Positions 5,225-63,378 of a DNA stretch of 64,000 nucleotides are shown here, piece after piece. Location: positions 242,110 through 306,109 of the forward strand of contig JACPUC010000001.1 in assembly GCA_016192455.1 (NCBI GenBank), read 5' to 3'. The position numbers and the translations under genes were made by a program. Positions within the stretch are counted from its first letter, which is position 1; the number at the start of each line of letters is the position of its first letter. A model generated the notes under the pieces. It was not told the DNA's origin. It ran no database searches and was given only the letters and a program-made list of their open reading frames with translations. The DNA is from Candidatus Tectimicrobiota bacterium. GTDB taxonomy: Bacteria > JACPUC01.

Positions 5225-5466
5225 ACCTCATCACCTATCAGGATTGACACACCGCGTGTCGTCAATGTTGTGACCCCGCGTCTTCTACGGGAGAGCCTCG
5301 GGGTCCATGCAGTCGCCGCGCTCAACACCGGAAAGGGAACGACGTTGCCCCGGAGGGCGCGGGAATCCGGGACTCACCGGGGCCGCCAAGCCTGCTCCGC
5401 GCCGCCGCACCCCCACGCCACGCTTCAGGCTCGGCGCGGCCGCATCGCCCCACGGCGGTGGCACCC

Positions 5467-42151: not shown

Positions 42152-42208
42152 TCCGCAGATTACACAGATTGCACAGATTCAATCTGCGGAATCCGCGTAA
42201 TCTGCGGA
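42152..42208. repeat. Family A hairpin repeat, copy A1
   Basis: Outer arms TCCGCAGATTAC and GTAATCTGCGGA pair perfectly; the inner part repeats CAGATT. It fills the space between two phage genes, followed by AAGGGAA and the start of the fibre gene. Confidence 0.9.
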
Positions 42209-42216
42209 TTCCTTCC

Positions 42217-42414
42217 TTACCCTATCGCCGCGTTCTTCGCCTGCTGCCCGCGCACCCAGAATTGGCAGCACTCCGCCGAGCAGAAGCGCACGTTCTTCCA
42301 CTCCTGGCCGCCGGCCACCTTCACCTCGCGCATCTCAATGTCCGGCCCCTGATGCTTGAACGGCTTCTGGCAGCCGTCGCAGATGAACTTTTCAGGCTTC
42401 ACGGGCATGGTCAT
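42217..42414 (-). CDS. Small phage zinc-finger-like protein
   Basis: A 65-residue protein with CDGCQKPF near the N-terminus and RFCSAECCQFW near the C-terminus, a likely four-cysteine zinc site. The ATG at 42414 has GGAGGAG 5 bases upstream; this site is the edge of a family C repeat. Function unknown. Confidence 0.65.
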   Translation of the reverse strand: MTMPVKPEKFICDGCQKPFKHQGPDIEMREVKVAGGQEWKNVRFCSAECCQFWVRGQQAKNAAIG

Positions 42415-42946: not shown

Positions 42947-43008
42947 ACTACTGATGGACACAAATGAACACGGATATCAGTGTCTATCAGTGTTTATCCG
43001 TGGTTCCT
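42947..43008. repeat. Family B hairpin repeat, copy B3
   Basis: Arms around AACACGGATATCAGTG and TATCCGTGGTT. Lies between the hub gene stop and the 91-residue gene. Confidence 0.75.
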
Positions 43009-43079
43009 TCCGTTACGCCGCCCCCAGGACCGTCCATTCCACGTCCGCGCCCGGGCGTGGGGAGGAGCCCCGCCCATCC

Positions 43080-44702: not shown

Positions 44703-44759
44703 TCCGCAGATGACGCAGATTTCACAGATTCAATCCGCGTCATCTGAGTAATCTGCGGA
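44703..44759. repeat. Family A hairpin repeat, copy A2
   Basis: Arms TCCGCAGATGAC and GTAATCTGCGGA; followed by GCAAGGGCTCC and the hub-like gene start. Confidence 0.9.
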
Positions 44760-44884
44760 TTTCCTCGTGATCCCCTGCACGCAGGCAGGAGGCGCCGAGC
44801 GGATCATCGCCGCCGCGTTCTCCGCCTGCCTACCGCCTCAAGCGGAGCAGCGCAGGCAGGCGCCGCCGCGGTGGAGCCGAAGCG

Positions 44885-46468: not shown

Positions 46469-46525
46469 TCCGCTGATTACACAGATTACGCAGATTCAAT
46501 CTGCGGCATCAGCGCAATCTGCGGA
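46469..46525. repeat. Family A hairpin repeat, copy A4
   Basis: Arms TCCGCTGATTAC and GCAATCTGCGGA. Fills the gap between two phage genes; followed by TCAAGGAC and the start. Confidence 0.88.
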
Positions 46526-46544
46526 TTCTCCTTCGTCCCTGCAT

Positions 46545-47054: not shown

Positions 47055-47112
47055 TCCGCAGATTACACAGATTCCGCAGATTGAATCTGTGAAAATCGGC
47101 GCAATCTGCGGA
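47055..47112. repeat. Family A hairpin repeat, copy A5
   Basis: Arms TCCGCAGATTAC and GCAATCTGCGGA; ends 16 bases upstream of the methyltransferase start. Confidence 0.88.
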
Positions 47113-47198
47113 TCGTCTCCTACGAGCCATCGAGGCGCCGGTCGTCGCGGACAAAGAACTCGCCGCGGCTAGCTTCGCCCCTCACCCCCGCGAATTTA

Positions 47199-47262
47199 GA
47201 ACCACAGATGAACACGGATAAACACGGATAATCAGTGTCCATCAGTGTTTATCCGTGGTTCC
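47199..47262. repeat. Family B hairpin repeat, copy B4
   Basis: Arms GAACCACAGATGAACACGG and ATCCGTGGTTC; abuts the stop codon of the tape measure gene. Confidence 0.8.
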
Positions 47263-47263
47263 C

Positions 47264-50263
47264 TCATGACCCGTTGATCCGGCCGTCGGCGTCGACGAAG
47301 AGTTCGCCGCGGCGGCCCATCTCGATGATCAGGCGCTTCATGTGGTCGCGCGTCACCTCGGCGATGACTCGGCCGTCGGTGACGAGCTGGATCGTTTGGC
47401 GGTCGTTGATCTCGACATTGATGGGCGCGGGGCGTGAACCATTGCCGGCGGGCGTCACCTGCTCGCCGGCGTGGAGAAAGGCCAGGCCGGTGCGCGGCAT
47501 CACGCCGCCTTCCTGGAAGGAGGGGATGCCGCTGAATCCGAGGCTCTGCTGGCGAATGCGGATGAATGTGCCGATCACGTCGGCTCCGGCTCCCTGCGTC
47601 AGGAGGTTGCGGGCCTCGTTCTGAATTTGCTCCCAGATGGCTTGGTCGCGGGCCGAAAGGCCGCCCTGCGCTCCCTGCGCCGCGGCGAGCGATTGCGGCG
47701 ACGGCAGCCGCGCCTGGGCGGCGAGGTCGAGGACGCGGCTGAGCTCGGTAGGGAATCCGGCCAGCGCTCCGAGAGCGAGGGTGAGCTGGCTGAAATCGGG
47801 CAGCTCCGCGCGGGCGGCCTGTGCGATCTCCGCCGCCGTGGGCGGCTCGCGGCGCCCGGCGAAGAGCGTGTTCAGCTCGCCCAGGCGCGTCTCGATGAGG
47901 CCGAGCTGAGCCAACCTCTCCGTGTTCGTGTCGATGGCGCGCAGCAAGTCCGCCTGCTCGTTGAACCCCGCCGCGGCGATGGCCCGCACCTCCTCCAGCT
48001 TCGATTCCAGCGCCGCCCGCACGGCCTCCTGGGCCGCCACGAAAGAGCCGCCCATGCCCAGCTCGGCGAGGACCGCTTGGTTCGCGTCGATGATTTCCTG
48101 CTGCGCGCCGATTTGGGCCGCGAACGCGGCGTCGCTGATGTCGGCGAGGCCCTTCAGCTCGGCCACCATCTGATTCCGGCCTTCGCTGAACTCGTCGATG
48201 GTCAGGTCGGCGTTTTGCGATTGCAGTTCGAGGAGCTGCTGAAGAACATTGCGGCCCTGGCCGACGAGGGCGAGGGCGGTGTCCGGCTGGAGGTTTGGCG
48301 CGGCGAGGCGGACGGCGATGTCGGCGCGCTGGCCCATCAGGCGGGCCAGGCGGGCGGCGCGGGCCTCCTCCGGAAGCAGGCCGCGCAGGGACGCCTCGAA
48401 GGCTTGTTCCTCGATATCGGCGCGGGCGAGGCGCTGCTGACGGGTGAGGTCCTCGACGGCGCGGGAGGCGGCGGTGTTCTCCTGACGCAGGCGGTCGAGG
48501 ACGGAGGCGAAGCGCGTCGCGGCGCTGGTCAGACCCTCGAAGATGTTTTGCAGCCCCTCCGGCCCGGCGCCCGCGCCGCCCTCGGCAAGGACGCGGCTAA
48601 AGGCGGCGAAGCTCTCAAGGGCGCCCTTGATCTGCGCCTGGGCGGTGGGCGGGCGAAGCTGGAAGAGCGTGGCGCTCACTTCCTCGATGACTCCGGCGAA
48701 GCCCTGGGCCTGCGCGAAGGTGCGCGCCGTGAACCCCTCGGCGGCTTTCTGGAGGGTTTCAAGAAACTGCGCGAACTCCTCGTTAAAGGCCCGCACGCGG
48801 TCAAGGTCGCCGGGCGAGGCGAAGACGCGGAAAAGCTCGGCGATCTGTTCGAGGCCCTGGACAACCACGCTTCCAGCGCCCAGGGACTCCGCCGTCAGCC
48901 CATGCTCCGGCGCCTCGCGCCCGAAAGGAGTCGCGCCCGTGACCTCGAACCCGGCGCCGGCGAGGCGAGACAAGAAGAGCGAGCGCTGGAGGTCGGCGCG
49001 CTTGCCAAGTTGGGCGTCGCTGAAGATGCCCTCGTTGCCCACCGGCAGCTCGAAGCGGCGGTTCACCACGCCGGAGAAGAAGCTGGCGGGAAAGGCTCCG
49101 CTGGTCGCCACGGCGCGCACACCAGCCTCGCCGCCAAGAAGGCTCACCACCCCCTCGGCCACCGTGCCCGCCAACTCCCGCGTCGGGCCGAACAGACGGA
49201 GACGGTTGCGGGTGACGCCGGAGAAGCGCTCGATGCTGGCGGGCAGGCCTGCGAGGCCGCCCGCCAGGCTGCCCGCGGCGGCTCCGCCGAGTGGTCCCTG
49301 GGCGAGGGCGGCGAGGCCGGCGTTGACGCCCTGCAGCGTGCCGCGCAGGCCGGCGAAGGACTCCTCGAGGAGCTTCGCCTGGCGCTCCAGCTCCTTGGCG
49401 CGGCCGGACTTGCCAAAGAACGAGAACGCCAGGGCGCCGAGGCCGACAGCGATGCCGATGGGGCCGAGGATCGAGGCGGCGCCGGCGGCTCCCGCGCCCG
49501 CCGAAAGCGCCGCGTCCGCGGCCAGGCCGGAGGCGAATGCTGGCGTGGCGCCCAGCGCGGCGGAGGAAACGGCGGCGCCGCCGCCGATCCCCAGCAGCGA
49601 GCCGACGCTGCGCCCGAGGCCGAGGAGGTTAAAGGCCGGCGAGACGCCCGCGCTCCCGCCGCCGCCGGAGCCGAATGCGGGTGAGGCGCCCGTGCCCCCA
49701 AGGCGGCCGATGGCGCCGAAAATCCCTTGCACGCTGGAGAGCGATCCGAGAACCCGTCCAACGCCGCCGCCCACGTTGATGCCGAAGTTGCGCAGCAGAT
49801 TGACGATGTTGCCCAGCAGGCTCTGCATTGCTCCAAGCAGGCCAAGGCCGCGTTCCTGCTCGTCGTTGAGTTGCCGCATTTCGATGCTCGCCATTGCGGC
49901 GGCGCCCGCATACGTTCGCGTCCCCTCCTCAACCCCTTCAATGCTCTGCTGCAGCTCGTCGAACCGCTGAGCCGCCTGCTGGGGGGCGCGCATCGCCGCC
50001 AAGCGCTGCTCATATGCTCCGAGGGCGTCGCGCTGTTTCGTCACCTGCTGCGCCACCGCCGCCGCAGTCCTCCCCAGGAGTTCCTGTTGCTGCTGCATGG
50101 GAACGAGTGCGCTGGCGGCCTGCTCGCCGCGACCCGTCACGCGCTCGAGCGCCCGCTCCAGCGCCTCGAACGAGGCGCGCAAGCGCTGCACCGCCGGCTC
50201 CAAAGCCTGCGCCGCTCTGACAGCATCGTCGGTGGGGAAGTCACGGCTCGCTTCAGTATCCAT
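47264..50263 (-). CDS. Phage tail tape measure protein
   Basis: A 999-residue protein that sets tail length and is threaded through the tube. It is helical and Ala/Gln/Glu-rich with coiled-coil stretches (ALEPAVQRLRASFEALERAL, MQQQQELLGRTAAAVAQQVT), and has glycine/alanine-rich hydrophobic segments around residues 230-300 (LLGIGGGAAVSSAALGATPA, ILGPIGIAVGLGALAFSFFG), typical of tape measures. The ATG at 50263 is used; the frame is open to 50335. Tail assembly chaperone genes, which normally precede it, are not adjacent but 9.5 kb away at 59857-60620. Confidence 0.85.
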   Translation of the reverse strand: MDTEASRDFPTDDAVRAAQALEPAVQRLRASFEALERALERVTGRGEQAASALVPMQQQQELLGRTAAAVAQQVTKQRDALGAYEQRLAAMRAPQQAAQRFDELQQSIEGVEEGTRTYAGAAAMASIEMRQLNDEQERGLGLLGAMQSLLGNIVNLLRNFGINVGGGVGRVLGSLSSVQGIFGAIGRLGGTGASPAFGSGGGGSAGVSPAFNLLGLGRSVGSLLGIGGGAAVSSAALGATPAFASGLAADAALSAGAGAAGAASILGPIGIAVGLGALAFSFFGKSGRAKELERQAKLLEESFAGLRGTLQGVNAGLAALAQGPLGGAAAGSLAGGLAGLPASIERFSGVTRNRLRLFGPTRELAGTVAEGVVSLLGGEAGVRAVATSGAFPASFFSGVVNRRFELPVGNEGIFSDAQLGKRADLQRSLFLSRLAGAGFEVTGATPFGREAPEHGLTAESLGAGSVVVQGLEQIAELFRVFASPGDLDRVRAFNEEFAQFLETLQKAAEGFTARTFAQAQGFAGVIEEVSATLFQLRPPTAQAQIKGALESFAAFSRVLAEGGAGAGPEGLQNIFEGLTSAATRFASVLDRLRQENTAASRAVEDLTRQQRLARADIEEQAFEASLRGLLPEEARAARLARLMGQRADIAVRLAAPNLQPDTALALVGQGRNVLQQLLELQSQNADLTIDEFSEGRNQMVAELKGLADISDAAFAAQIGAQQEIIDANQAVLAELGMGGSFVAAQEAVRAALESKLEEVRAIAAAGFNEQADLLRAIDTNTERLAQLGLIETRLGELNTLFAGRREPPTAAEIAQAARAELPDFSQLTLALGALAGFPTELSRVLDLAAQARLPSPQSLAAAQGAQGGLSARDQAIWEQIQNEARNLLTQGAGADVIGTFIRIRQQSLGFSGIPSFQEGGVMPRTGLAFLHAGEQVTPAGNGSRPAPINVEINDRQTIQLVTDGRVIAEVTRDHMKRLIIEMGRRGELFVDADGRINGS

Positions 50264-50616
50264 ACCCTTGCCACTCGTTGCAGTCTGGGGTGAGGCCCGG
50301 AGTTCAAGCGTGCCCCGCTTCGCGCCCTCCACCACGCTGGCGGAGAGCTTTCGGTCCCCCGCGGGGCGGGCGCAGCATGGCGAGACATTGCCCTCCGGCT
50401 TGCGGCGTCGCTGTCAGTTGCTGTCCCGGCCGAAGGGAGAGGAAGGGTGCAATGCCGCACGTGCCAGCAGAGGGAGCGCCTGGCATCGAGGCGGAGGAGG
50501 CGAGGAACAAGCGTGGTCCCCGGAGCAGGCGCATCAGCGCGCGGCGGCTCTCACTCCCCCCTCACTTAGGGGTTGCAAGTGAACCTCCCGCGACGCGCCG
50601 CCGGCGCTCCTTTCAT

Positions 50617-58133: not shown

Positions 58134-59132
58134 TTAACGGTGACGCTTTTTCCCCTTGGATTTTGATTTACTGCCACCTGTTCTAGGTCCATGTTGTTGG
58201 ACCATTATGCGAGCGAGTTTAATAAAAGCCTTTCCTTCATGATTTTCTATGATCTTCACCGCGTTCGTTCCTTGAAAGGTGTGTGTTGTGGCATGAAATA
58301 TTGAAAGGAAAATATCTTGCATGACTTGATCTTGTTCAAGATGTTCGATTTTCAGTCCCTGCTGTTCAAGCTCAGATCGTGGAATGTGTCTACTGTGAGT
58401 TTTCCAGTGACCATGGGAAGATAACCATTGTGCTATTTCTGCGGGTTTTGTTGTATACCTCTCTTCCGGAACATTCCGGAACATGTATGATGTTAGCCAA
58501 CGCTTAACTAATTCCTTGGAAAGTTCTATGGCTCGCTCGCATTGCAATAAGAGGTCCGGTCCATATTGTCCTAGCATCGGATACCAAGCTGCAAGGCTTG
58601 ACTGGTCGGTTGCACCTGAAAGAGCCTTATCAAATTGGTCGAGAATCGCTTGGGCAGGGACCATGCGCAATCCCAGCGGGGTGGGCAGGAGTAACTGTGG
58701 GTCAATCGGCCCCAAGAAAGAATGCTTGCCCATTACAATTATATCAGCAGCACAAGCAATCATGGTCGCCGCCGACATTGCAAGACTCGGAACAATAACC
58801 TTGATGTGATCAAACTTTGAACGTAAGTATGAGACTATTGCTTCCGCTACTGTCGGCGAGCCTCCCGGACTATGTAAAATAAGGTCGAGCTGAGTACCAG
58901 AAAGGCCGTGAAGAACCTCCATAAAGCCCTGTAAATCTTCCTCTGCTATAGATATAACATCAGGATCGATATGTGGATCTGGTTGCGTCCATTTGGTTGC
59001 GTAAAGAATAGTATTACGTTGGGAGTGCTCTTTTGCGCTTACAAGGTATCTTCGCCTCACTAGATCAAATTCGCTTCCGTCCCCTTTGTGGTTTTTTTGC
59101 AGCTCATTAAGTATCTCAGACCATGTTGGCAT
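58134..59132 (-). CDS. SDH/SppA-type serine protease (ClpP fold)
   Basis: A 332-residue protein of the serine dehydrogenase proteinase family. It shows LDLILHSPGGSPTVAEAIV for the oxyanion region, then VIVPSLAMSAATMIACAADI with the likely nucleophile serine (SAAT where SAGT is usual) and MGKHSFLGPIDPQL. The C-terminus is basic (GGSKSKSKGKKRHR), perhaps for nucleic-acid or membrane contact. Clearly AT-richer than its surroundings, which suggests transfer. It follows the small gene at 59147-59374 by 14 bases. Confidence 0.85.
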   Translation of the reverse strand: MPTWSEILNELQKNHKGDGSEFDLVRRRYLVSAKEHSQRNTILYATKWTQPDPHIDPDVISIAEEDLQGFMEVLHGLSGTQLDLILHSPGGSPTVAEAIVSYLRSKFDHIKVIVPSLAMSAATMIACAADIIVMGKHSFLGPIDPQLLLPTPLGLRMVPAQAILDQFDKALSGATDQSSLAAWYPMLGQYGPDLLLQCERAIELSKELVKRWLTSYMFRNVPEERYTTKPAEIAQWLSSHGHWKTHSRHIPRSELEQQGLKIEHLEQDQVMQDIFLSIFHATTHTFQGTNAVKIIENHEGKAFIKLARIMVQQHGPRTGGSKSKSKGKKRHR

Positions 59133-59856: not shown

Positions 59857-60294
59857 CTACCGCCCCATCAACGCCTCACGACGGATCAGGCCAGGATTCG
59901 GTGAGCCAAACGCGCCGCAGCCCGCGCCGTCGCCAATGGCGCTCCCCTGCAAGCGACTCGTCTGCAGCCGGTGCATCTCCGCGATGAGGCGGAAACGCTG
60001 CGCCAGCACCCAGGCCTCGTCCTCGCCGAGGTCCAGGGGGTCGAGGGCGGTGGCCAGCTCGACGCCGAGGTGGTGGATGAGGTCGTAGCGCTCCCAGGCC
60101 TCCTGGTTGTCGTGGCTGAGGCGGACGATGCCGCGCGGCCCGAACTGAGCTTCGCATCCCTCGCAGTCGCGGAACCGGCCTCCCATCTGACGATCCAGCT
60201 CCTCGTCGGCCCGGCAGGCGGCGCAGCCGGCGAAGGCGGGGAAATCAAGACGGAAGGAGAGGTAGTCGGCCAGGTTGCGAAGCTCGGCGGCTAG
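59857..60294 (-). CDS. Tail assembly chaperone, frameshift extension (GpT-like part)
   Basis: A 145-codon frame in the -1 register relative to the upstream chaperone gene, with no start codon of its own near its beginning. It is entered at the slippery site 60300-60294 and reads LAAELRNLADYLSFRLDFPA, then a cysteine-rich part (AGCAACRADEELD, RDCEGCEAQFG) suggestive of a zinc site, and a helical C-terminus (AWVLAQRFRLIAEMHRLQTS). The fused product would be about 254 residues. An internal ATG at 60186 is possible but would lose the first third. Confidence 0.8.
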   Translation of the reverse strand, partial: LAAELRNLADYLSFRLDFPAFAGCAACRADEELDRQMGGRFRDCEGCEAQFGPRGIVRLSHDNQEAWERYDLIHHLGVELATALDPLDLGEDEAWVLAQRFRLIAEMHRLQTSRLQGSAIGDGAGCGAFGSPNPGLIRREALMGR

Positions 60295-60620
60295 TTTTTT
60301 TCCGCGCCCACCTCCGCCGCGTCGGTGGCCGAGATGGCGGTGATGACGCGCGTCACGGTGTCCGGCGGCAGATCGAGGAGCAGCTCGATGTTGAACGGCA
60401 CGGTCTCGCCGCGCTCATCAACAAAGCCGTACCAGTCCACCACGCAGGCGCGCAGGGTGTTCTCGGCCACCTGCGCCCAGTCGCAGACGCCGTTGCGGTC
60501 GGTGGCGCGGCGGATGAAGGCGTGCTGCTGCTTCTGGCTGAGGCGGCGATAGTAGACGCCCGCGTCGGACGCGAGGCTGAGCCTGAAGCGCTCGGTATCT
60601 TTGCGAATCGTGATCGGCAT
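60291..60620 (-). CDS. Tail assembly chaperone (GpG-like)
   Basis: A 109-residue protein between the tail tube gene and the frameshift extension, the lambda G / G-T position. It begins MPITIRKDTERFRLSLASDA and ends EVGAEKN followed by TAG. GGAGGAG lies 8 bases before the ATG at 60620. The last codons GAA AAA AAC form the slippery site. It binds the tape measure protein during tail assembly in known phages. Confidence 0.82.
   Translation of the reverse strand: MPITIRKDTERFRLSLASDAGVYYRRLSQKQQHAFIRRATDRNGVCDWAQVAENTLRACVVDWYGFVDERGETVPFNIELLLDLPPDTVTRVITAISATDAAEVGAEKN
60294..60300 (-). promoter_or_regulatory. -1 ribosomal frameshift site A-AAA-AAC
   Basis: Minus strand, in the chaperone frame: GAA AAA AAC TAG. 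The heptamer A-AAA-AAC fits X-XXY-YYZ; slipping back one base turns AAC TAG into CTA GCC and opens the 145-codon extension. Confidence 0.8.
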
Positions 60621-60643: not shown

Positions 60644-60702
60644 TCCGCGGATTACACAGATGACGCAGATGAGGAATCGGCGCAATCGGCGCAATCCGCG
60701 GA
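60644..60702. repeat. Family A hairpin repeat, copy A6
   Basis: Arms TCCGCGGATTAC and GCAATCCGCGGA; fills the gap between tail tube and chaperone genes. Confidence 0.88.
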
Positions 60703-60710
60703 CCCCTCGC

Positions 60711-61814
60711 TTACGCCGGGTTGGTCTGCACGCTGTTCAGGCGGTAGATGTATGGCGTTGCGGAGCTGGCGACCCGTGTGTTGCCAGCGTAGGCGCCGGC
60801 GTTGAATCGTTCGTCGAGGTTCGCCGGGGTGATGGCGGTGGCCGAGGCGGTGCAGATGAAGTCGAAGGGGTTGACGATGCGCCCCTGGCCGGCGGCGCGG
60901 GCGGCCTCGGTGGTGATCTGAAGCTGCGGGATGAGGAAGGCGACGGCGAGGTTCTCCGCGCCGATGGCGGCGCCGGTGAACCAGACGCTCATCATCATCA
61001 GGGTCTTGTTCAGGAAGGCGGTGCGGGTGTCGAGGGCGGAGGCGCCCTCCTCGGCGCCGCCCTGGCTGTAGACCGGGAAGCCGATGGAGCCGGTGACGCG
61101 GAACCGTCCGTCGCGGTGCGGCTCGTCGGTCAGGGTGGAGCGGCGGGTGGTGATGTCGCCGCGGAGGTTGTTCTCGATGCGCAGGGTGAACGAGTTGGGG
61201 TAGATGCGGTCGTCGGTGTCGAGCGGGCTGCCGGTGAGGGTTTGGGCGGCCATGCGCACGTCGAGGTGGCTGGCGAGGGCGAGGGTGGCCGCGTAGGTGG
61301 GGACGGCGCCGGTGGTTGGGAAGGCGGTGGAGCTGAGGGTGAGGTCGTCGCAGATGAGGCCCCAGGAGCAGCGCGGGCGCTGGCCGGCCTGCCAGGAGAG
61401 GTCGAGGGAGTTGACCTTGACGGAGGCATAGCTGTCGCGGTTGGCGCCTTTCTCGATGATGAGGGTGCCGAACAGGCCGTCGAGGTCGTCGAGGAGGACG
61501 AACTCGTTGTAGTAGACGCCGCTGGCGATGGCGCCGGGTGTGTTGGCGGTGCCCATGAGGAGATTGAAGAGGAGGTCGAGTCCCTCATAGGTGAGGTGGG
61601 TGTCGATGGTTCCCTCGAATCGTTCCTCGCCGATGTCGCCGCGGCGCTGCATGGCGCTGCCGGTAAGGGCCTCGTCCTCGAGGAGGGGGGCGGTGGAGGC
61701 GATGTTCTCGCCGGTGAGGTAGAGGGCGTCGGCCAGGGTGGGCGTGACCGCCGTGCCCCAGGTGGCGCCTTTCTTGAGTACGGCTTGCGCTTCAAACCCG
61801 TAGCCGATTGCCAT
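60711..61814 (-). CDS. Phage tail tube protein
   Basis: A 367-residue beta-rich protein with the major-tail-protein outline: MAIGYGFEAQAVLKKGATWG at the start, GSAMQRRGDIGEERFEGTID in the first third and NSFTLRIENNLRGDITTR in the second half. Its place directly upstream of the frameshifting chaperones fixes the role. ACAGGAGAC stands 8 bases before the ATG; a family A element lies just upstream. Confidence 0.78.
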   Translation of the reverse strand: MAIGYGFEAQAVLKKGATWGTAVTPTLADALYLTGENIASTAPLLEDEALTGSAMQRRGDIGEERFEGTIDTHLTYEGLDLLFNLLMGTANTPGAIASGVYYNEFVLLDDLDGLFGTLIIEKGANRDSYASVKVNSLDLSWQAGQRPRCSWGLICDDLTLSSTAFPTTGAVPTYAATLALASHLDVRMAAQTLTGSPLDTDDRIYPNSFTLRIENNLRGDITTRRSTLTDEPHRDGRFRVTGSIGFPVYSQGGAEEGASALDTRTAFLNKTLMMMSVWFTGAAIGAENLAVAFLIPQLQITTEAARAAGQGRIVNPFDFICTASATAITPANLDERFNAGAYAGNTRVASSATPYIYRLNSVQTNPA

Positions 61815-62160: not shown

Positions 62161-62216
62161 TCCGCAGATTACGCAGATTGCGCAGATTCAATCGGCGTCA
62201 TCTGTGCAATCTGTGG
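62161..62216. repeat. Family A hairpin repeat, copy A8
   Basis: Begins TCCGCAGATTACGCAGATTG and ends CAATCTGTGGG. It lies 16 bases upstream of the small gene start and encodes the last codons of the glycosyltransferase (QIAQMTPIESAQSA). Confidence 0.88.
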
Positions 62217-63221
62217 GTCGTTCCAGCCTTGCAGAATCTCGATCAGCCGCAGGGCGGCGTGGTCCCAGGTGAAAGCCCAGCGGGCGAGGGCGGCGGCCTG
62301 GGCGCGCAGCTCGCGGGTGGCGGCGTAGTCTGCATAGGCGCGGCGCATCAGGCGGCGCAGGTGGCGCGGGTCGGGTTCATCGACGACGATGGGGACGCCG
62401 TACTCGGCCTGGCGGCGTCGGGTGCTGACGACGAAGGCGGTGCGCGGCGTGACGAACTCGGCGAGGCCGGTGTGGCTGGGCGCGATGACGAGGCAGCCGC
62501 TGGCCATCGCTTCGAGGGCGGTGAGGCCGAAGCCTTCGCCGCGGGAGGGGAAGACGAACGCCTGGGCGGACTCGTAGAGGAGGCGGATGCTGGATTCGTC
62601 CAGGTTGCGGCCGTCGAAGTGGACCTTGCCGCCGTGGGAGGCGAGGTGCTGGTCCTGGGCGGCGGCGGTGGTCTTGACGTACAGCTCGACCGGCTCCCAG
62701 GGGCGGAACTCGGCCTGAAAGGCGGCAACGGCGATGTCCCAGCCCTTGCGCACGTCGGGCGCGCCGAGCCAGAGGAAGCGGAAGCGAGGGCTGATCCGCA
62801 GATTTCGCCGATTACGCCGATTAAAATCTGTGGCATCTGCGTAATCTGCGGATGCTCTTTCGCGATAGGGGAAGGCGGCGGGGTCGAAGCCGAGGGGGCA
62901 GACCTGCGAGTCGAGGTTGTAGCCGGCGAGGGCGCGCTGGTTGTGGGCGCAGGGGACGATGAGGCGGTCGGCCAGGCGGGCGCCGGCGAGGAACTCGGGC
63001 GGCAGGCGGTCGGCCTCGAACATGGTGAAGAGGACGTTGACCGGGTTCGGGCGGCGCTGGTAGAGGTGCGCCGGGGCGAAGGCGAGGGCGACGGGGGCGT
63101 TGTCGTCATCGCGCAGCTCGGCTCCGGCGCGCAGGACGGCGGCGCGCAGCTCGCGGTTGGCCTTGGCGTAACCGTAGGTCTTGCCGATGCCGCCGATGTC
63201 ATAGGACCAACGAAGCCGCAC
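62169..63221 (-). CDS. Glycosyltransferase (GT4-like), phage-borne
   Basis: A 350-residue retaining glycosyltransferase of the GT-B fold. The acceptor-side N-terminus is WSYDIGGIGKTYGYAKANRE; the donor-binding half shows FRFLWLGAPDVRKGWDIAVA and the ExxxxxxxE motif in SRGEGFGLTALEAMASGC. GTG at 63221 is chosen because GGGAGAA lies 9 bases upstream; an ATG at 63263 lies inside a family B repeat. Two segments are repeat-derived: an internal one (SADYADATDFNRRNRRNLRI) and the C-terminal end. It may glycosylate virion proteins or the host surface. Confidence 0.85.
   Translation of the reverse strand: MRLRWSYDIGGIGKTYGYAKANRELRAAVLRAGAELRDDDNAPVALAFAPAHLYQRRPNPVNVLFTMFEADRLPPEFLAGARLADRLIVPCAHNQRALAGYNLDSQVCPLGFDPAAFPYRERASADYADATDFNRRNRRNLRISPRFRFLWLGAPDVRKGWDIAVAAFQAEFRPWEPVELYVKTTAAAQDQHLASHGGKVHFDGRNLDESSIRLLYESAQAFVFPSRGEGFGLTALEAMASGCLVIAPSHTGLAEFVTPRTAFVVSTRRRQAEYGVPIVVDEPDPRHLRRLMRRAYADYAATRELRAQAAALARWAFTWDHAALRLIEILQGWNDPQIAQMTPIESAQSA
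62795..62852. repeat. Family A hairpin repeat inside the glycosyltransferase gene, copy A9
   Basis: Arms TCCGCAGATTTC and GTAATCTGCGGA. The reading frame stays open through the element, adding about 20 residues between GFDPAAFPYRE and RFRFLWLGA. Confidence 0.88.
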
Positions 63222-63242
63222 GGGTTCAGCTTCTCCCTTTAG

Positions 63243-63356
63243 AAAGGAACCACTGATGGACACGGATGAACACGGATAGCCTTCGGCCCCTCACCCCGGC
63301 CCTCTCCCTGGGGGAGAGGGATGATCAGTGTGTATCGGTGTTCATCTGTGGTTCTC
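63243..63356. repeat. Family B repeat split by a family F repeat
   Basis: Family B left half (GAACCACTGATGGACACGG, 63247-63280), family F hairpin (63286-63320, CCCTCTCCCTGGGGGAGAGG core), then family B right half ending CATCTGTGGTTC (to about 63354). A nested insertion. Confidence 0.75.
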
Positions 63357-63378
63357 CGTTCATCTGTGGTTCTGCCCG

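Follow-up and report, generated by a model that had tools for sequence, protein, structure and literature searches.

The question raised by this locus, which lies within a 64-kb window (the whole stretch of DNA analysed) close to one end of a 306-kb contig from a 4.46-Mb host genome, is whether a phage tail assembly chaperone gene ending in a run of adenines and the open frame that overlaps its 3' end are two genes, one gene split by accident, or a single gene read through by ribosomes that change frame. Taken together, the evidence set out below points to a programmed -1 ribosomal frameshift of the lambda G/G-T type in a siphovirus-type tail assembly chaperone pair, a reading to which a probability of about 0.93 is assigned.

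Slip site and reading frames

The relevant features are as follows, L009 being the related viral contig described in a later section.

60291..60620, minus strand: first tail assembly chaperone frame (G-like, P0001), from translation, 109 aa, with stop TAG at 60293-60291
60294..60300, minus strand: slippery heptamer A_AAA_AAC, from sequence, in phase and with TAG immediately 3'
60311..60315, minus strand: Shine-Dalgarno-like GGAGG, possible stimulator, from duplex energy, with GGAG at equal spacing in L009
59857..60294, minus strand: -1 frame (T-like extension, P0002), 145 aa, with a homologous -1 frame in L009
60711..61814, minus strand: tail tube protein gene, from PF18906, phrog_290 and an L009 homologue
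47264..50335, minus strand: tape measure remnant, its match to the L009 tape measure confined to residues 699-1374

The first chaperone frame opens with ATG at 60620, in front of which stands a GGAGGAG ribosome-binding site, and closes on the minus strand at 60302-60291 with GAA AAA AAC TAG, the letters and position given by the initial annotation. The heptamer region contains seven consecutive A's, and at 60300-60294 the first A of the heptamer is the third base of the preceding codon, which is the shift-prone phase. A -1 slip at this point opens a frame of 145 codons followed by a stop at 59859-59857, a count that agrees with the one originally proposed. Upstream, the same frame stays open for 40 codons to a stop at 60417-60415 and holds no ATG, GTG or TTG; downstream, none occurs before ATG 60186 (codon 37), in keeping with the earlier statement that the frame has no start near its beginning.

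On the proposed mechanism, most ribosomes would stop at the TAG to yield the 109-residue chaperone. A minority, their tRNAs paired with AAA and AAC, would move back by one nucleotide at A_AAA_AAC and continue with CTA GCC GCC..., yielding a fusion of about 254 residues whose C-terminal domain comprises 145 residues. If the roles are those known from lambda, the short form would coat the tape measure protein, and recruitment of the tube protein would fall to the long form. We infer the slippage, its efficiency, the boost from GGAGG and the chaperone roles from the arrangement of the locus.

Heptamer frequency and coding signal

The heptamer alone constitutes little evidence, since the window has two copies of AAAAAAC where 1.14 are expected. 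The other copy (59097-59091) is also in phase; it belongs to a ClpP-like protease gene, and its -1 frame stops after eight codons. Scans for in-phase X_XXY_YYZ motifs (Y = A or T) returned AAAAAAC as the sole example in either phage's chaperone genes and as the only one across eight L009 genes, the eight window genes scanned containing two more, GGGAAAT and CCCAAAT.

Long open frames are cheap at the 67% GC of the window; coding content is not. Codon log-odds trained on the other phage genes of the window favoured frame 0 up to the heptamer (+15.9 to +31.3) and the -1 frame past it (+6 to +29 over most of that frame), and the stretch of the -1 frame before its first ATG scored +13.0, as against -27.9 for both other frames. 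The view that the frame codes sensibly from the slip onward is borne out by this switch together with conservation in L009.

Neither frame matched any Pfam or PHROGs family at E < 0.05, nor therefore any named tail assembly chaperone family in those collections, and AlphaFold2 models of both frames (mean pLDDT 47) were too poor for a fold search. P0001 gave a weak profile match to the tail assembly chaperone of the Rhodobacter phages RcapMu and RcWaterboi. Among long-tailed phages the frameshift arrangement is kept despite low sequence similarity (PMC5009743).

Conservation in a related phage and alternative explanations

Viral contigs were searched for relatives of both frames, the tube and the tape measure, and genome contigs for relatives of the first frame and the tube. 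The sole relative obtained was viral contig IMGVR_UViG_3300009285_006217 (L009). No others were found in 59 genomes of the same domain or in the host's phylum, of which the search set held only the host's own genome; in phage records searched with the tube and the L009 second frame; or in plasmids searched with the first frame.

L009 has the same gene order, with identities of 51% for the tube, 53% for the first frame and 35% for the second frame (BLASTP E 1e-14), and its tape measure lies downstream of the -1 frame with one small reading frame between. Its first frame ends CGA AAA AAC CTG GAG AGC AGC TAG: the heptamer and its phase are those of the window, but the heptamer stands four codons before the stop rather than directly before it, and the A run numbers six. 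Independent retention of the heptamer at such protein divergence argues, at the level of sequence comparison, for selection. The initial annotation had recommended a search of related prophages for the same heptamer and frame arrangement, and had named separate, independently started genes with no slippery heptamer as the contrary case; the single relative has the heptamer, phase and arrangement of the window and does not show that contrary case.

The comparison also bears on whether the two frames are instead separate genes, the second being translated from an internal start with no fusion formed. ATG 60186 does open a 109-residue reading frame, and a CTG lies at 60273. The 36 residues that precede this ATG, however, show conservation in L009 for the -1 frame alone: their alignment scores 55, whereas none of 5000 shuffles exceeded 46 and no other pair of frames exceeded 29. 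The stretch encoding them also uses phage codons. The L009 -1 frame is likewise closed by an upstream stop, with only seven codons between it and the point where the slip site ends; its first start (position 5459) lies past the conserved block. Since no start precedes the block in either phage, its conserved residues are unreachable by ordinary ATG, GTG or TTG initiation, and separate genes are accordingly considered very unlikely.

An equally slight probability attaches to transcriptional slippage, in which the A run would give rise to a mixed mRNA from which the fusion is made. A run of seven A's in the window is in its favour, but L009, with six A's only, still keeps the phase-correct heptamer, and A runs as short as these slip poorly in RNA polymerase. 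That an ordinary frameshift mutation or a sequencing error split one gene in a decaying prophage would fit the damaged look of the prophage (tape measure N-terminus gone, host-like genes between chaperone and tape measure), but is barely credible and, on the sequence comparison, largely refuted by the presence of the same split and the same heptamer in L009, a separate assembly whose proteins are only 35-53% identical.

Possible stimulators and evidence against frameshifting

Programmed ribosomal frameshifting, the preferred reading, must also be set against several unfavourable observations. A_AAA_AAC shifts much less readily than A_AAA_AAG in E. coli (PMC5009743), a weakness that would fit production of little long form relative to short. 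Efficiencies of 6 and 7% have been measured for two genes with tail-chaperone frameshifts (PMC3711429). Downstream RNA structure was not above shuffles in either phage (z-scores +1.55 and +0.19), and Rfam returned one sub-threshold chance match, elsewhere than the site. Also on the unfavourable side are the single clear relative, the lack of a named-family match and the seemingly disrupted state of the prophage.

Upstream, GGAGG lies 10 nt from the heptamer in the window and GGAG lies 10 nt from it in L009. For each phage, chance would place a GGAG in this interval at 3.5% of in-phase positions. Pairing energies were computed against the standard anti-Shine-Dalgarno, which may not be that of the host: on this basis the window GGAGG (duplex energy -14.0) falls within the best 0.17% of in-phase positions in the window phage genes, and the L009 GGAG only within the best 14%. 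These values suggest that the upstream GGAGG is a putative frameshift stimulator. A more extended proposal, offered tentatively and judged somewhat short of an even chance, is that a dnaX-like Shine-Dalgarno 10 nt upstream, and not downstream structure, drives the weak A_AAA_AAC, and that this device is conserved across a divergent, nearly unsampled phage group with a new sequence family of chaperone pairs.

Gene neighbourhood and state of the prophage

The gene just upstream of the chaperone encodes a tail tube protein (PF18906 Phage_tube_2, E 5.6e-24; also phrog_290), so the upstream half of the claim that the locus occupies exactly the position of lambda G/G-T stands. The downstream half does not: about 9.5 kb separate the chaperone end (59857) from the tape measure (50335-47264). 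Between 50335 and 59857 the plus strand carries host-like genes for a MoxR-type ATPase, a CoxE-type VWA protein, a thioesterase, a glyoxalase/isochorismatase and RecJ, and the ClpP-like gene also lies between chaperone and tape measure. Nothing in the window tape measure corresponds to the N-terminal half of the L009 protein, and a search of the host genome sequence (88% complete) did not find this half elsewhere.

The prophage is probably defective or rearranged, or else the contig is chimeric; the judgement that it is probably defective follows from the interposed host-like genes and the truncated tape measure. The slip-site reading is unaffected by this, the site being common to L009, and in the seemingly disrupted window prophage the site may no longer be used.

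Several other features of the region were recorded. The ClpP/SDH-type serine protease gene at 58134-59132 (phrog_11747, E 2e-89) lies in a stretch of 46-49% GC, as against 67% for the window. A family 4 glycosyltransferase gene (62169-63263) sits inside the phage structural cluster, upstream of the tube and separated from it by one small frame; a glycosyltransferase with 52% identity occupies the same place in L009. Palindrome-like repeats of ~70 bp (TCCGCAGATTACACAGATT...AATCTGCGGA) occur at 42152-42222, 44703-44773, 46469-46539, 47055-47125, 60646-60716 and 62161-62231, in or beside gaps between phage genes, with one between tube and chaperone; one of them also matches sequence elsewhere in the host genome, on other contigs. 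A related copy of 38 bp lies inside the glycosyltransferase gene at 62795. A second repeat, ATCAGTGTCTATCAGTGTTTATCCGTGGTTC, is found between phage genes at 42976-43010, 47231-47265 and 63324-63358.

Significance and comparison with known systems

The finding extends a well-known frameshift of long-tailed phages to a prophage of a little-sampled bacterium; as such it is ordinary, of low surprise, and leaves general understanding unchanged. Its practical consequence is a corrected annotation: what would be listed as one gene and an orphan frame becomes a single fusion gene, of a chaperone family absent from Pfam and PHROGs. The new details are the Shine-Dalgarno-like GGAG(G) 10 nt upstream in both phages and the lack of downstream structure above background.

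The lambda heptamer is G_GGA_AAG, whereas that of the window is A_AAA_AAC, and the tape measure gene that follows in lambda is not adjacent in the window. The two systems resemble each other in having a small gene after the tail tube gene and a -1 slip near its 3' end that fuses a second domain (PMC5009743). A phage search with the first frame gave no match to lambda or to any Acinetobacter phage. Acinetobacter phage Loki (gp12/gp13) thus differs in having no sequence relationship detectable by that search, but is alike in having AAAAAAC beside the stop of the first chaperone gene (PMC5313236), as has also been reported for the tail chaperone slip site of IME_AB3 (PMC5313236). The same heptamer serves as the tail chaperone slip site in phiCbK-like phages, Colossus having GGGAAAC (PMC3556154), and in the haloarchaeal virus HCTV-2 (PMC5009743).

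RcapMu (gene 49/50) and RcWaterboi (gene 47/48) share the order tube, chaperone, -1 frame, tape measure, a stop directly after the heptamer, an upstream AGGAGG, and a weakly similar first frame (for RcapMu, hhalign 81%, E 1.2e-5, over 28 columns around a VDERG..VPF motif). They differ in their heptamer, G_GGA_AAC, directly before TGA. The RcapMu site is annotated as a 'potential -1 frameshift', with a DUF1799 frame and then the tape measure downstream; P0002 and P0004 gave no match to this DUF1799 second frame. E. coli dnaX differs in its A_AAA_AAG heptamer, in the nature of the gene and in a downstream hairpin, none being evident in the window, but its A-rich heptamer is preceded by a Shine-Dalgarno-like stimulator (PMC3711429), an arrangement resembling the heptamer and putative stimulator of the window.
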